64,000 nt of DNA. It comes from Methylotenera sp. RIFCSPLOWO2_02_FULL_45_14 (GTDB taxonomy: Bacteria; Pseudomonadota; Gammaproteobacteria; Burkholderiales; Methylophilaceae). Position numbers and translations under genes: made by a program. Positions 5,667 to 9,959 of this stretch are shown here, in pieces (the first letter of the stretch is position 1; the number at the start of each line of letters is the position of its first letter). The stretch covers positions 166,167-230,166 of the forward strand of contig MHBU01000031.1 in assembly GCA_001803395.1 (NCBI GenBank), written 5' to 3'. The notes below the pieces were generated by a model. That model was not told where the DNA came from. It did no database searches and worked only from the letters and a program-made list of their open reading frames with translations.

Positions 5667-6494
5667 TTAAGCGGCTTGTTTGGCATGGCGCTCATATAAA
5701 AAGCGCAACACTTCGCTACGTAAATGGTTGTAATCTTTATTTTCTGCAAGATCTAAACGTGTTCTTGGCCGTGGTAAATTCACCTCTAAAATCTCGCCAA
5801 TCCCAGCGGATGGGCCGTTGGTCATCATCACCACGCGGTCTGACAGCAATATTGACTCATCTACATCGTGCGTTACCATGACTGCGGTACAACCGGATTT
5901 CGCCATAATTTTCATGAGTTCATCTTGCAGGTTAGCGCGGGTTAACGCATCTAATGCGCCAAAGGGCTCATCTAATAACAGCACTTTGGGTTCCATGGCT
6001 AAAGCGCGTGCAATGCCAACGCGTTGCTTCATGCCGCCTGAAATTTCATTAGGGCGCTTGTCTGCCGAGTGTGACAAACCAACCAGCTCAATCGCCGCAT
6101 GTGTGCGTGCTTCGAGTTGCGCTTTAGATTCTCTTGATTTTGAACTGACACCAAACACGCGTTCTACTGCTAAGTAAACATTTTCATAACAAGTGAGCCA
6201 AGGCAATAATGAGTGGTTTTGAAAAACAACTGCACGCTCAGGTCCTGGGCCAGCTATTTCTCTGCCAGCACAAAACAGCAGCCCTTCCGTTGGTTGCAAT
6301 AAGCCTGCGACTAAGTTCAACAACGTAGATTTACCACAACCTGAGTGACCAATAATTGAAACAAATTCACCTTCTTTAATGTTTAGGTTAATGTTGTTAA
6401 GTGCGTTGAATGTGCCTTTTTTAGTAGAGAATGTCATATCGACATTTTCGAGCTGCACATATTTCTCAGCGTTTGCTTTTTCTACTTTTTCCAT
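5667..6494 (-). CDS. nrtD: Nitrate ABC transporter, ATP-binding protein
   Basis: This 275-residue ATPase has Walker A GHSGCGKST (near residue 50), the Q-loop FQNHSLLPW, the ABC signature SGGMKQR and Walker B VLLLDEPFGALD. It is most like the NrtD/SsuB/TauB group that energises oxyanion and organic-anion import. Position directly after nrtB (38 bp) and within a nitrate cluster supports nitrate as substrate. The start is preceded by AAGGA. There is no NrtC-like fused substrate-binding domain, so a single ATPase probably dimerises. Confidence 0.92.
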   Translation of the reverse strand: MEKVEKANAEKYVQLENVDMTFSTKKGTFNALNNINLNIKEGEFVSIIGHSGCGKSTLLNLVAGLLQPTEGLLFCAGREIAGPGPERAVVFQNHSLLPWLTCYENVYLAVERVFGVSSKSRESKAQLEARTHAAIELVGLSHSADKRPNEISGGMKQRVGIARALAMEPKVLLLDEPFGALDALTRANLQDELMKIMAKSGCTAVMVTHDVDESILLSDRVVMMTNGPSAGIGEILEVNLPRPRTRLDLAENKDYNHLRSEVLRFLYERHAKQAA

Positions 6495-6532: not shown

Positions 6533-7471
6533 TTATTCGTAACTAAACTTTTTAGCCATTTGCGTGAGTGCCAGTTCTAACAGCAAACCAACAACACCAA
6601 CTACAAAAATCGCGATAATGATGTGTTCTACATTTAGGTTGTTCCACTCATCCCACACCCAAAAGCCAATGCCAACGCCACCTGTGAGCATTTCTGCCGC
6701 CACGATTACCAACCATGCCACACTGATAGAAAGACGTATGCCAGTCATCATGTAAGGCAACGCAAAAGGAAACAGTATTTTCGTCACAATTTTCCACTCG
6801 CTCAAATTCAGCACCTTGGCCACATTCATATAATCTTGCGGCACTTTGCTAACCCCTACCGCAGTGTTGATAATCATCGGCCATACGGCTGAAATAAAGA
6901 TCACCCAAATTGCCGCAGGATTGGCTGCTTTGAACACCAACAAGCCGATAGGCAGCCACGCCAGTGGCGATACTGGACGTAATAAGCTAATGACTGGCGC
7001 GGTCATGCGTGCTGCAAATTTAAACCGGCCAATAATGAACCCCATCGGAATGCCGACCAACGCAGCCAAGCTAAAGCCCAAGGCTACGCGTTGCAATGAA
7101 GCCAAAATGTTCCAACCCACGCCCATGTCGTTTGGACCATGGTCGTAGAATGGATCACTGAATAGCTGAACGGCAGAGTGCCATGTTTTTAGCGGCCCAG
7201 GCAGGTTTGGTGATTGATGTGAAATCAATGTCCAAATTGCAAGTAACAATAAGATGCCAAAAACAGGCGGGAGCAGCCATTTAAAAAACTGATAAGTTTT
7301 AATACTCAGGTTGTTTGGTTTTAATTGGCTTGATTGGGTTTTGGTAATCCTCGCTACGTTTTCAATCGCTTCATTTTTGTTTTCAGTCATTGCAACTCCT
7401 TTACTTACCATCGTATCTTTGCTTTGCATGATGCTTTTTAAGCTCTCTTTACTGATGCTGATCGCGCTCAT
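6533..7471 (-). CDS. nrtB: Nitrate ABC transporter, permease
   Basis: This 312-residue inner-membrane protein has about six membrane segments. The permease-ATPase coupling loop lies around VGVSKVPQDYMNVAKVLN, and the C-terminal part matches the BPD_transp_1 family of NrtB/SsuC type. The first 60 or so residues are an unusually long polar, cytoplasmic extension. The ATG at 7471 is supported by AGAGGA just upstream. It lies between nrtA and nrtD; the gap to nrtA holds an inverted repeat (7558-7629) that could tune expression of the membrane subunits relative to the binding protein. Confidence 0.92.
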   Translation of the reverse strand: MSAISISKESLKSIMQSKDTMVSKGVAMTENKNEAIENVARITKTQSSQLKPNNLSIKTYQFFKWLLPPVFGILLLLAIWTLISHQSPNLPGPLKTWHSAVQLFSDPFYDHGPNDMGVGWNILASLQRVALGFSLAALVGIPMGFIIGRFKFAARMTAPVISLLRPVSPLAWLPIGLLVFKAANPAAIWVIFISAVWPMIINTAVGVSKVPQDYMNVAKVLNLSEWKIVTKILFPFALPYMMTGIRLSISVAWLVIVAAEMLTGGVGIGFWVWDEWNNLNVEHIIIAIFVVGVVGLLLELALTQMAKKFSYE

Positions 7472-7649: not shown

Positions 7650-8951
7650 TTAAGCTTTAATTTTGAAAGAAGCCGCATAAGCCGCAGGGTTTTTGCCATC
7701 CCAAACCACGCCATCCATCAGCTTGCTACTGCGCATCACATCTTTAGGCACACTAATACCGAGTTGTGATGCCGCTTCTGAGTACAGTTTCACTTGATTC
7801 ACTTTGGTCGCAATGGCTAAGTAGTCAGGGTCTGATTTGAGCAAGCCCCAACGTTTATGTTGGGTTAAGAACCACATGCCGTCAGATAAGTACGGAAAGT
7901 TAACTTTGCCATCACCAAAGAATTTCATGAAATTTGGATCTTTCCATTTTTTGCCGATACCGTTGTCATAATCACCAATGAAGCGGCCTGCAATCACCTC
8001 TTCAGGTGCATTCACGTAAGCTTTACCAGAAATTAGTTTGGCTACCTTGGCGCGATTTTCAGTTGCTTCGATATACCTGCAAGCATCCAGAATTGCCATA
8101 ATCATGGCACGTGAGGTATTGGGGTTGTTTGCCACAAATTCTGCCGTAGTGCCTAATACTTTTTCAGGGTGATCGACCCAAATATCTTGTGATGTCGCCA
8201 CACTGAAACCTACCTTGTCGTAAATTGCACGCGCATTCCAAGGTTCACCTACACAGTAGCCATCCATATTGCCGATGCGCATGTTGGCGACCATCTGTGG
8301 TGGCGGCACTACAATGTTTTTAACATCTTTAACTGGGTCAATACCATTAGCCGCAAGCCAATAATTTAGCCACATGGCGTGCGTACCGGTAGGGAATGTC
8401 TGCGCAAAGGTATAATCGCGGTTTTCGTTATCGAGTAAGCGTTTTAAGCTTCTGCCGTCTTTAACGCCTTTTTCTTTGAGCTGGTTAGATAACGTAATGC
8501 CTTGGCCGTTATGGTTTAAATTCATCAATACCGCCATGTCTTTTTGTTTGCCACCCACACCTAACTGCACGCCATACACCAAGCCATACAACACATGCGC
8601 CGCATGCAATTCACCATTCACTACTTTGTCGCGCACGGCCGCCCATGAGGCTTCTTTTGATGGGGTGATTTTGATACCGTATTTCTTATCAAAACCCATT
8701 TCAGCAGCTACAACAATGGGCGCGCAGTCAGTCAATGGAATAAAACCAATTTTTACTTCGGTAATTTCTGGTGCATCGGAGCCAGCTGCCCAAGCGTTGG
8801 TTTTAATTGCAGTAGGTACCAGCCCCATTAGCGCAGCCGCACCAAAGGCGCCAGCCGCAGTGTTGCGAAAAAAGTCGCGACGACCAGCGTCAACTATGTT
8901 AGTTACAGTATTTTTAATGTTTTTATCGGATGTATTGTCGTTACTGCTCAT
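7650..8951 (-). CDS. nrtA: Nitrate ABC transporter, periplasmic substrate-binding protein (Tat-exported)
   Basis: The product is 433 residues. It begins with a twin-arginine signal (AGRRDFFRNTAAGAFG, then a hydrophobic stretch), so export is probably by Tat. The mature part begins VKIGFIPLTDCAPIVVAAE, typical of the NrtA/CmpA nitrate/bicarbonate-binding family, and includes TFPTGTHAMWLNYWLAANG. The ATG at 8951 is chosen over one eight codons earlier because TAAGGAGATAACC sits directly before it. Expression should depend on the terminator/ANTAR leader immediately upstream (9029-9175). Confidence 0.93.
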   Translation of the reverse strand: MSSNDNTSDKNIKNTVTNIVDAGRRDFFRNTAAGAFGAAALMGLVPTAIKTNAWAAGSDAPEITEVKIGFIPLTDCAPIVVAAEMGFDKKYGIKITPSKEASWAAVRDKVVNGELHAAHVLYGLVYGVQLGVGGKQKDMAVLMNLNHNGQGITLSNQLKEKGVKDGRSLKRLLDNENRDYTFAQTFPTGTHAMWLNYWLAANGIDPVKDVKNIVVPPPQMVANMRIGNMDGYCVGEPWNARAIYDKVGFSVATSQDIWVDHPEKVLGTTAEFVANNPNTSRAMIMAILDACRYIEATENRAKVAKLISGKAYVNAPEEVIAGRFIGDYDNGIGKKWKDPNFMKFFGDGKVNFPYLSDGMWFLTQHKRWGLLKSDPDYLAIATKVNQVKLYSEAASQLGISVPKDVMRSSKLMDGVVWDGKNPAAYAASFKIKA

Positions 8952-9028
8952 GGTTATCTCCTTAAAATCAATCAAATTTCCTAAAAATTTATCACCTGAA
9001 AACTTAAAATCTAATCATTTTTGCCAAC

Positions 9029-9093
9029 AAAAAAGGCGTCTGATAAGAAGCTAATTTCCGATTAAAGAATTTAGTTCTTATCAAGACGCCTTT
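9029..9093 (-). terminator. Attenuator terminator in the nrtA leader
   Basis: Read on the minus strand, AAGGCGTCTTGATAAGAA pairs with TTCTTATCAGACGCCTT with one bulged base, and the 3' arm runs into six T's. It lies 78-142 bp upstream of the nrtA start and downstream of nasT, so it would stop transcription before nrtA unless overridden. Its 5' arm overlaps the last ANTAR hairpin (9082-9099). Confidence 0.85.
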
Positions 9094-9175
9094 GTCTTGT
9101 ACTACTTTATGCGAGCCTGCTTTGGCTCTATTTTGTTGTTAACTATACATAAAAGTCCATCGTTGGATTTTTATG
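9082..9175 (-). promoter_or_regulatory. ANTAR (NasT-responsive) RNA leader with three hexaloop hairpins
   Basis: Three hairpins are visible in the minus-strand RNA. Hairpin 1 (9148-9175) has an 11-bp stem with one mismatch and loop AACGAU. Hairpin 2 (9113-9128) is GAGCC/GGCUC with loop AAAGCA. Hairpin 3 (9082-9099) is CAAGAC/GUCUUG with loop AAAGGC. All loops are six bases with A at position 1 and G at position 4, the signature bound by ANTAR antiterminators. Hairpins 2 and 3 are 13 nt apart, and hairpin 3 uses bases of the terminator's 5' arm, so the two are mutually exclusive. Hairpin 1 is extra to the usual pair. Confidence 0.85.
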
Positions 9176-9247
9176 CCATACCGCTAATTTACATCTACTT
9201 CGTTAAACCTAGAAAAAACAATTTTATGAACAACAGCCGTTTTCAGG

Positions 9248-9823
9248 TTAAAGCAACAACGCTGCTGCTTGCACTATTTGCTTTGACAATGTACCTATGC
9301 GCATGTTTTTTTGCATCGCCATCGTACGCAACATGCTATAAGCCTCATTTTCATCAATTTTTCTTTGCTTCATCAGCAAGCCTTTTGCGCGTTCAATCAC
9401 CTTACGCTCACTAAGCTTGATATTCGCCTCGCTTAACGCTTTACGCAGATGCTTAAATTCTTCAAAACGCGCTATCGCCGCATCAATCACAGGCTGTAAA
9501 CGCTCATTCGGTATACCGCCAACCACGTATGCACAAACACCTGCTTGCGTAGCCAATTTAATCTGTTCTTTATCACCATCGTGCGTAAACATCATAATGG
9601 GCCGAGGCTCATTCATCGTCATCACGCAAATATTCTCTAAAGTATCGCGACTAGGTGAATCAGTATCAATAATCACAATGTCGGGCTGTAGCTTACAGCA
9701 GGCATCATTTAAGTTAACGGTATCTTTTAGATGCGCAATCACCTGATACCCGTTGTCAATCAAAGATTGCTTGAGGGGTTTTGTGCGCTCTAAATCGCCA
9801 TCAACAATCATTACTCTTAACAT
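9248..9823 (-). CDS. nasT: NasT-type ANTAR response regulator (transcription antiterminator)
   Basis: The 191-residue product has an N-terminal receiver-like domain (MLRVMIVDGDLERT, IVIIDTDSPSRDTL) and a C-terminal ANTAR RNA-binding domain in its last 55 or so residues (KVIERAKGLLMKQRKIDENEA, AYSMLRTMAM). NasT binds paired hexaloop hairpins and prevents termination ahead of nitrate-assimilation genes. Such hairpins lie just downstream (9082-9175), before nrtA. The start at 9823 matches the family; upstream in-frame codons to 9874 overlap the sigma-54 promoter. No nasS gene, the usual nitrate-sensing partner, is adjacent. Confidence 0.92.
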   Translation of the reverse strand: MLRVMIVDGDLERTKPLKQSLIDNGYQVIAHLKDTVNLNDACCKLQPDIVIIDTDSPSRDTLENICVMTMNEPRPIMMFTHDGDKEQIKLATQAGVCAYVVGGIPNERLQPVIDAAIARFEEFKHLRKALSEANIKLSERKVIERAKGLLMKQRKIDENEAYSMLRTMAMQKNMRIGTLSKQIVQAAALLL

Positions 9824-9857: not shown

Positions 9858-9873
9858 AGCAATATCTGTGCCA
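9858..9873 (-). promoter_or_regulatory. Sigma-54 promoter of nasT
   Basis: On the minus strand the sequence is TGGCAC-AGATA-TTGCT, an exact match to the -24/-12 consensus. The predicted start is near 9848, 25 nt before the nasT ATG. The transcript could continue through the ANTAR leader into nrtA. Confidence 0.85.
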
Positions 9874-9959
9874 ATAGTTATTAAACCATCTAACCTGATG
9901 ATTTAATATCTAAATTTATATTAATATATGATTTTTATGGCGCTGTAAAGGTGGAGTGC

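Follow-up and report, generated by a model that had tools for sequence, protein, structure and literature searches.

A candidate NasT-responsive ANTAR attenuator with a third conserved hairpin between nasT and nrtA in Methylotenera and its relatives

Introduction

The ANTAR RNA element has been defined as a dual one (Ramesh et al. 2012, PMC3369931). Work on EutV indicates that the length of the linker is critical, a 20-nt extension abolishing activity, and in 2022 the earlier model, in which a single dimer spans both hairpins, gave way to one in which the dimer visits them successively, contacting one hexaloop at a time in a proposed sequence of a recruitment and then an antitermination hairpin (Walshe et al., PMC8934654). 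The same work mentions mycobacterial ANTAR target RNAs outside the dual motif. In the nitrate assimilation system of Paracoccus denitrificans, NasS holds the ANTAR protein NasT until nitrate or nitrite binds (PMC3795266), and nitrate assimilation is expressed even in the absence of nitrate when nasS is mutated (PMC3795266, PMC5424462).

A stretch of 64,000 nucleotides from a Methylotenera genome (contig MHBU01000031.1; hereafter the window) raises the question of what one hairpin more would do in such a leader. The genome (2.1 Mb, 98% complete, 35 contigs) carries, between nasT and nrtA, three hairpins whose six-base loops have A at position 1 and G at position 4 (A1/G4). Here, their conservation, the placement of the promoter and the candidate nitrate sensors are followed through the family Methylophilaceae and other families of its order.

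Results

The nasT-nrtA leader

The minus strand of the locus reads, in order, a sigma54-like promoter, nasT, three hairpins (H1 to H3, with a linker between H2 and H3), a terminator, nrtA, nrtB and nrtD:

9858-9874, minus strand: sigma54 (-24/-12) promoter-like site TTGGCACAGATATTGCT, matching 12 of 13 consensus positions and ending 34 nt before the nasT ATG
9248-9823, minus strand: nasT, 191 aa, receiver-like and ANTAR RNA-binding domains (PF03861, E 4.3e-17; PF00072, E 4.6e-8)
9147-9176, minus strand: H1, the extra upstream hairpin, hexaloop AACGAU (A1, G4), loop 9164-9159, stem covarying in relatives
9113-9128, minus strand: H2, GAGCC-AAAGCA-GGCUC, loop 9123-9118, corresponding to P1 of the published dual motif
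9100-9112, minus strand: H2-H3 linker, 13 nt
9082-9099, minus strand: H3, antiterminator hairpin CAAGAC-AAAGGC-GUCUUG, loop 9093-9088, corresponding to P2 and overlapping the 5' arm of the terminator
9029-9093, minus strand: intrinsic terminator ending in UUUUUU, mutually exclusive with H3
7650-8951, minus strand: nrtA, the gene next after the attenuator, encoding a nitrate-binding protein whose Tat-type signal reads RRDFF (PF13379, E 1.3e-107)
6533-7471, minus strand: nrtB, nitrate ABC permease (TIGR01183, above cut-off)
5667-6494, minus strand: nrtD, nitrate ABC ATPase (TIGR01184, above cut-off)

An initial annotation of this DNA had named the gene just upstream as the ANTAR protein NasT and those downstream as nrtABD, and the profile matches confirm both, the REC-ANTAR architecture of nasT included (its domain search used the longer frame 9874-9248, and the start codon was set at 9823 by eye). 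The AAGGAG ribosome site of nrtA lies at 8963-8958 on the minus strand. Beyond nrtD, the same strand carries a porin-like gene, nirB and then, by the look of the ORF, a narK-type transporter. A sigma54-like site at 4020-4004 (minus strand) stands just 5' of nirB, which may thus be served by a separate nitrogen-regulated promoter within the cluster; another such site, at 52518-52502 (minus strand), lies 5' of an ORF resembling a type IV pilin (52414-52001).

The three A1/G4 hexaloops had been annotated exactly, in letters and in position, as had the 13-nt linker of the H2-H3 pair and the overlap of the last hairpin (9099-9082) with a strong terminator (9093-9029). The H1 stem has 11 pairs and one mismatch, with three consecutive pairs under the loop, an A-C mismatch and eight pairs more, and in the predicted fold of the window its loop A1 pairs with U6, leaving a loop of 4 nt. 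The stretch from the nasT stop to H1 (9250-9177, minus strand) is about 45 nt longer than in the closest relative (L004). The leader folds at -64.9 kcal/mol versus -43.3 +/- 3.7 kcal/mol in shuffles (z -5.8; 0 of 200 as stable), and its minimum-energy fold is the terminator conformation, from which H3 is absent, as expected of an attenuator. When the 140-nt core was dinucleotide-shuffled 5000 times, 4913 of the products lacked such an A1/G4 hairpin and the other 87 contained a single one; two together never arose. Judged by this anatomy (tandem A1/G4 hairpins, an exclusive terminator and a linked ANTAR gene), the leader belongs to the ANTAR kind, and homology, linkage and architecture point to the NasT type.

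The RNA-family search that had been suggested for this leader came back empty: across the whole window, nothing reached the gathering score in Rfam 15, a negative with little bearing on function. Weak matches at 8700-9700 to four unrelated families (mir-302, STnc40, snoZ101, sR18) were set aside as chance. Because the Rfam search yielded nothing, a model of the triple hairpin, R1, was built.

Conservation in the closest relatives

Seventeen nasT-nrtA spacers were compared, that of the window and those of 16 NasT relatives obtained by a protein search of genome contigs. Loss of A1/G4 in relatives had been named in the initial annotation as the outcome that would speak against it; both positions are kept in H1, H2 and H3 of all 17 spacers, the search pattern for H1 itself having demanded A1/G4, and H1, which had been described as an additional hairpin, is real and conserved across relatives. 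Just three consecutive pairs stand under the H1 loop before the mismatch in the window, L004, L017 and L019. The distance between the loop starts of H2 and H3 is 30 nt in the window, 30-33 nt in 16 of the 17 spacers and 46 nt in L017, and that between H1 and H2 varies from 27 to 53 nt.

In a MAFFT alignment of the 17 spacers, 86.3% of the cells are paired and 14 of 23 pairs have changed on both sides (H1 11/12, H2 2/5, H3 1/6). The covariation score, 0.327, compares with 0.185 +/- 0.017 in column shuffles (0 of 500 as high) and with at most 0.109 in slid structures, figures to be read with L010 misaligned in H1, H1 cells paired in 74% and shuffles that ignore relatedness. The misplaced L010 row is also part of model R1; the ungapped A1/G4 counts are free of this fault.

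A wider survey of leaders

The survey drew on 80 stretches of Methylophilaceae DNA and a further 40 belonging to other families of the order. Of 187 Methylophilaceae genomes, 64 gave a match to NasT at more than 200 bits, and 59 of these 64 contribute one leader each; G018, G100 and G130 were left out, together with G010 and G028, whose sole locus is of the nasT-nasS kind. Since the 59 include the genomes of the first 17 spacers, the two sets are not independent. The 40 order-level loci, with 42 nasT copies, were chosen among the higher-ranking of 102 non-Methylophilaceae genomes in which NasT was matched. All Methylophilaceae leaders but L087 (58 of the 59) have an NrtA-family match behind nasT.

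Of the 113 spacers that follow an ANTAR gene, 104 contain H3 with a downstream inverted repeat and a T-rich tail, namely 59/59 Methylophilaceae NasT, 8/8 NasR, 4/4 nasT-nasS and 33/42 order-level spacers. Eight of the 113, all order-level, showed no H3 (L100, L104, L118, L120, L123, L128, L135, L137), and L121, also order-level, would be the 105th H3-bearing spacer and was excluded by eye as doubtful. At least two A1/G4 hairpins lie upstream of H3 in 46 of the 59 Methylophilaceae leaders (two in 45, three in 1) and in 15 of the 33 order-level ones (two in 12, three in 3). At the cut-offs used, a single one was counted in 13 of the 59 and 17 of the 33, and none in 1 of the 33, so that H1 is dispensable in general. 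NasR leaders have one (7) or two (1), and nasT-nasS leaders none (3) or one (1).

The zone of H1, which begins 174 nt and ends 38 nt ahead of the H3 loop, was scanned for hexaloop stems of at least 4 pairs without demanding A1/G4; in leaders with a long linker, this zone also covers H2. A1/G4 was found in 42 of 63 such stems in Methylophilaceae (1.5 expected), 23 of 62 in other families (2.1 expected) and 9 of 20 in NasR leaders (0.5 expected). In 58 Methylophilaceae leaders, a control zone past the terminator had it in 2 of 32 stems. Because A1/G4 exceeds both expectation and control zone, we conclude from these counts that H1 is probably under selection as an ANTAR loop.

With the border between near and far hairpins placed, by our own choice, 36 nt from H3, both were present in 42/59 Methylophilaceae and 13/33 order-level leaders, and neither in 0 and 1, respectively. 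A far hairpin alone was seen in 11/59 Methylophilaceae, 10/33 order-level and 8/8 NasR leaders, several of these cases (L046, L056, L057, L061, L136) being triples with a longer linker, and a near hairpin alone in 6/59 and 9/33, among which L020, L023 and L024 do have an H1 that missed the cut-off for want of G-C pairs. Some far-only leaders (e.g. L112, L108, L111, L075) carry a plain, motif-less hairpin between H1 and H3.

At E <= 2e-4, R1 matched in 55 of 187 Methylophilaceae genomes, 50 of them with a NasT match above 200 bits; the other five (G101, G104, G106, G107, G131) have a match to the ANTAR part of another protein. Weaker matches (E 0.0009 to 0.0085) were seen in about 13 genomes.

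Placement of the promoter

Each of the 16 close relatives has a site like that before nasT in the window, standing 22-51 nt ahead of where the match to nasT starts. Sites were called sigma54-type when at least 10 of 13 positions agreed, GG and GC being fixed, with the -24/-12 consensus; 18 of 2080 shuffled 200-nt windows reached this threshold. All 59 Methylophilaceae leaders carry such a site upstream of nasT, and one of the 59, L050, has it in the nasT-nrtA spacer. Order-level leaders have it in the spacer (30/33), upstream of nasT (26/33) or in both places (23), and all 8 NasR loci have it in the nasR-nrtA spacer, the upstream test being uninformative for these 8, where the blast match begins inside the gene. 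A sigma70 promoter in the spacer was considered and set aside as less likely, no sigma70-like match being listed on the minus strand of the nasT-nrtA spacer of the window. Sigma54 promoters had been predicted earlier for proteins of this group, nasT among them, mainly in beta- and gamma-proteobacteria (PMC12316311).

It had been proposed initially that NasT controls read-through from its own transcript into nrtABD. The proposal gains support here: because a sigma54-type site precedes nasT and the spacer is without one in 58 of 59 leaders, that of the window among them, nasT probably controls the read-through of its own transcript, and in Methylophilaceae nrtABD probably depends on a transcript that starts before nasT.

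NasS, NrtA and NasR

A cytoplasmic, signal-less NasS was not found in the window genome, whose single PF13379 (NMT1_2) protein at E <= 0.001 is NrtA, with its twin-arginine signal; on this gene content, the system of the window falls outside the definition of a NasS-NasT pair. Across the window's genus (52 genomes), NrtA/NasS-like matches score at least 314 bits and all others at most 67 bits, a clean gap, and a signal-less NasS-like protein occurs in 4 of the 52 (G009, G026, G010, G028), each time directly behind a nasT. At four loci of the genus (L080, L081, L082, L083), nasT is followed by an H3-like hairpin with a terminator and then by a signal-less NasS-like gene, and the near hairpin is without the A1/G4 motif.

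For 60 of the 64 NasT-bearing Methylophilaceae genomes (a hand count), no signal-less NasS-like protein is known at E <= 1e-60, a threshold at which an alpha-type NasS could go unnoticed in other genera, that of Paracoccus scoring 3.6e-57. Three of these 60 (G018, G091, G123) have zero PF13379 matches at the same cut-off, and two (G083, G165) encode an additional PF13379 protein, which in both cases shows an RR signal motif. In other families, a Tat-type signal was recognized by script in 30 of 38 nasT-linked NrtA-like genes and by eye in three more (L100, L109, L129); it was not seen in those of L120, L123, L125, L126 and L130, some of whose products may be NasS. Some of the 40 order-level genomes encode further PF13379 proteins (E <= 1e-50), and all 11 with a readable start carry the RR motif, one more (L154) being cut by a contig end. 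In Caballeronia, nasT is followed immediately by a signal-less NasS.

In a tree of NrtA, signal-less NasS-type proteins fall inside the NrtA clade in several places, which hints that NasS arose several times (4 changes, of which well-supported branches force at least 2), in a tree where the NasS branches are long and L107 and L126 are possibly falsely joined. This nesting fits with an NrtA able to partner NasT.

At eight Methylophilaceae loci (L076, L078, L079, L095-L099), NasR stands in the place of NasT before nrtA. NasR is a NIT-ANTAR protein, the NIT domain having been checked in two of the eight (L079, L097), and the far A1/G4 hairpin of its leaders lies 80-151 nt before the H3 loop.

Other ANTAR genes and unlinked leaders

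The window genome has two ANTAR genes, the second on contig C7 (L002, G000), where its neighbour is a histidine-kinase-like ORF containing a run of N. One R1 match was found in this genome at E <= 0.01. Five other Methylophilaceae genomes contain seven R1 matches away from nasT; three of them (L037, L040, L042) have three A1/G4 hairpins each, and four (L045, L058, L063, L068) have two, the last being H3, with a third hairpin called in L045 sitting in the terminator. The genes behind the seven encode dCache, PAS-GGDEF, GGDEF-EAL and PilJ-Hpt proteins and a formate/nitrite transporter with cyanase, which suggests that NasT, if it is the protein that reads them, acts also in trans in some species.

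Discussion

The leader resembles the dual motif of EutV/eutP, NasR/nasF and AmiR/amiE in its tandem short stems, A1/G4 hexaloops, a last hairpin that overlaps the terminator and nitrogen genes downstream, and it differs in having three conserved A1/G4 hairpins where the dual motif has two (PMC3369931). Its H2-H3 linker of 13 nt lies above the 5-12 nt of eut linkers and just below the 14 nt that were too long for eutP (PMC3369931), although NasT may differ in this respect. Like the window, the Paracoccus denitrificans NasS-NasT system pairs a NasT-type ANTAR protein with nitrate assimilation under an attenuator; there, NasS follows nasT and hairpins HI and HII precede nasA, whereas in the window nrtA follows nasT with the leader between them (PMC3795266, PMC5424462). 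Applied to the Paracoccus nasS-nasA spacer as a positive control, the same scan returned two A1/G4 hairpins with loop starts 25 nt apart, compared with 30 nt for H2 and H3 in the window, a count of hairpins that agrees with the HI and HII mutated earlier (PMC5424462). An additional G4 hexaloop beside a dual motif is also found in the EutX/Rli55 RNA (Walshe et al., PMC8934654), which is a sequestering small RNA, as opposed to the attenuator of a protein gene to which H1 belongs. The NasR leaders of Methylophilaceae share with the window an nrtA preceded by overlapping A1/G4 hairpin and terminator, as well as a far A1/G4 hairpin in 8 of 8, and they differ in the one-component sensor, the sigma54-type site in the spacer and the lack of a near A1/G4 hairpin. 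H1 would suit the part of one more recruitment hairpin, but the eut data do not account for how far from H2, and how variably, it is spaced. A three-hairpin ANTAR leader was not found in a literature search that covered few subscription papers.

The reading that we consider likely is a NasT-responsive ANTAR attenuator with one docking hairpin more than the textbook motif. Transcription would start at the sigma54 promoter, presumably activated by NtrC under nitrogen limitation, and would run through nasT into the leader. As long as active NasT is missing, the terminator would form from the H3 sequence and nrtABD would stay off. Active NasT would bind H1 and H2 as they emerge and then be handed on to H3, where it would block the terminator and let the same transcript continue into nrtABD. 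H1 would most likely be a second recruitment site that loads NasT earlier, which would make a dimer likelier to be nearby when H3 appears.

It is unlikely, if worth keeping in view, that H2 and H3 form an ordinary dual ANTAR motif and that H1 is a plain structural hairpin untouched by NasT, be it a 5' stabiliser or a remnant of the nasT 3' end. Such a role would suit the nearly constant H2-H3 spacing beside a variable H1-H2 spacing, the 9 of 33 order-level leaders that keep the near hairpin alone and the Paracoccus denitrificans nasS-nasA spacer with just two A1/G4 hairpins. However, a plain hairpin would not be expected to keep an A1/G4 hexaloop, as do 42 of 63 stems in the H1 zone where 1.5 were expected, and the far hairpin occurs without the near one in 10 of 33 order-level leaders (a few of them long-linker triples) and in 8 of 8 of the NasR type. 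That the second ANTAR protein, in place of NasT, reads the leader seems very improbable: the gene exists beside a histidine-kinase-like ORF, yet it is unlinked while nasT adjoins the leader, and leaders accompany NasT in 50 of 55 genomes, a count made for NasT among the ANTAR genes, which makes no clean exclusion. Hardly credible at all is a terminator that merely ends the nasT transcript, with nrtA under its own promoter and the A1/G4 loops due to chance. A spacer of about 300 nt is roomy enough for a promoter; against this stand the 0 of 5000 shuffles with two such hairpins, the conserved loops and covarying stems, and a spacer without a sigma54-type site in 58 of 59 leaders and, in the window, without a sigma70-like match on the minus strand.

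A separate issue, compatible with the attenuator explanation, concerns the signal. NasT might not be gated by nitrate, sigma54 and NtrC making nasT and the dose of NasT alone opening the operon after a feed-forward delay, a possible although doubtful reading. It draws on nasT being the first gene behind the promoter, on a genome in which NasS was not seen and NrtA is the one NMT1_2 protein, and on a receiver domain of NasT that presumably is without the phosphorylation-pocket lysine (AYVVGG, read off the unaligned sequence). The replacement of NasT by the nitrate sensor NasR in related genomes suggests instead that nitrate gating is wanted, and gating by nitrate is normal in Paracoccus according to the nasS mutant (PMC3795266, PMC5424462). 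It is rather unlikely, and put forward as a speculation, that the leader is a self-loading relay, NasT from the transcript's first gene being caught at H1 and passed to H2 and H3, with the folded cytoplasmic precursor of NrtA, a transporter subunit exported by Tat, replacing NasS as the nitrate gate; if that precursor were the gate, opening of the attenuator would make more of its own sensor. The gate of NasT here may be the NrtA precursor, dose alone or something else.

As far as the literature was searched, the conserved third loop and a NasS-less operon that appears to control itself are new. Leaders with H1, H2 and H3, with H1, a plain hairpin and H3, or with H2 and H3 exist in nature, mostly before nrtA, and offer a ready series for testing the hand-off of NasT. 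The NasS-less nasT-nrtA operons question the assumed partnership of NasT and NasS in beta-proteobacteria, and the unlinked leaders hint at a NasT regulon that reaches beyond nitrate assimilation and may include c-di-GMP genes.
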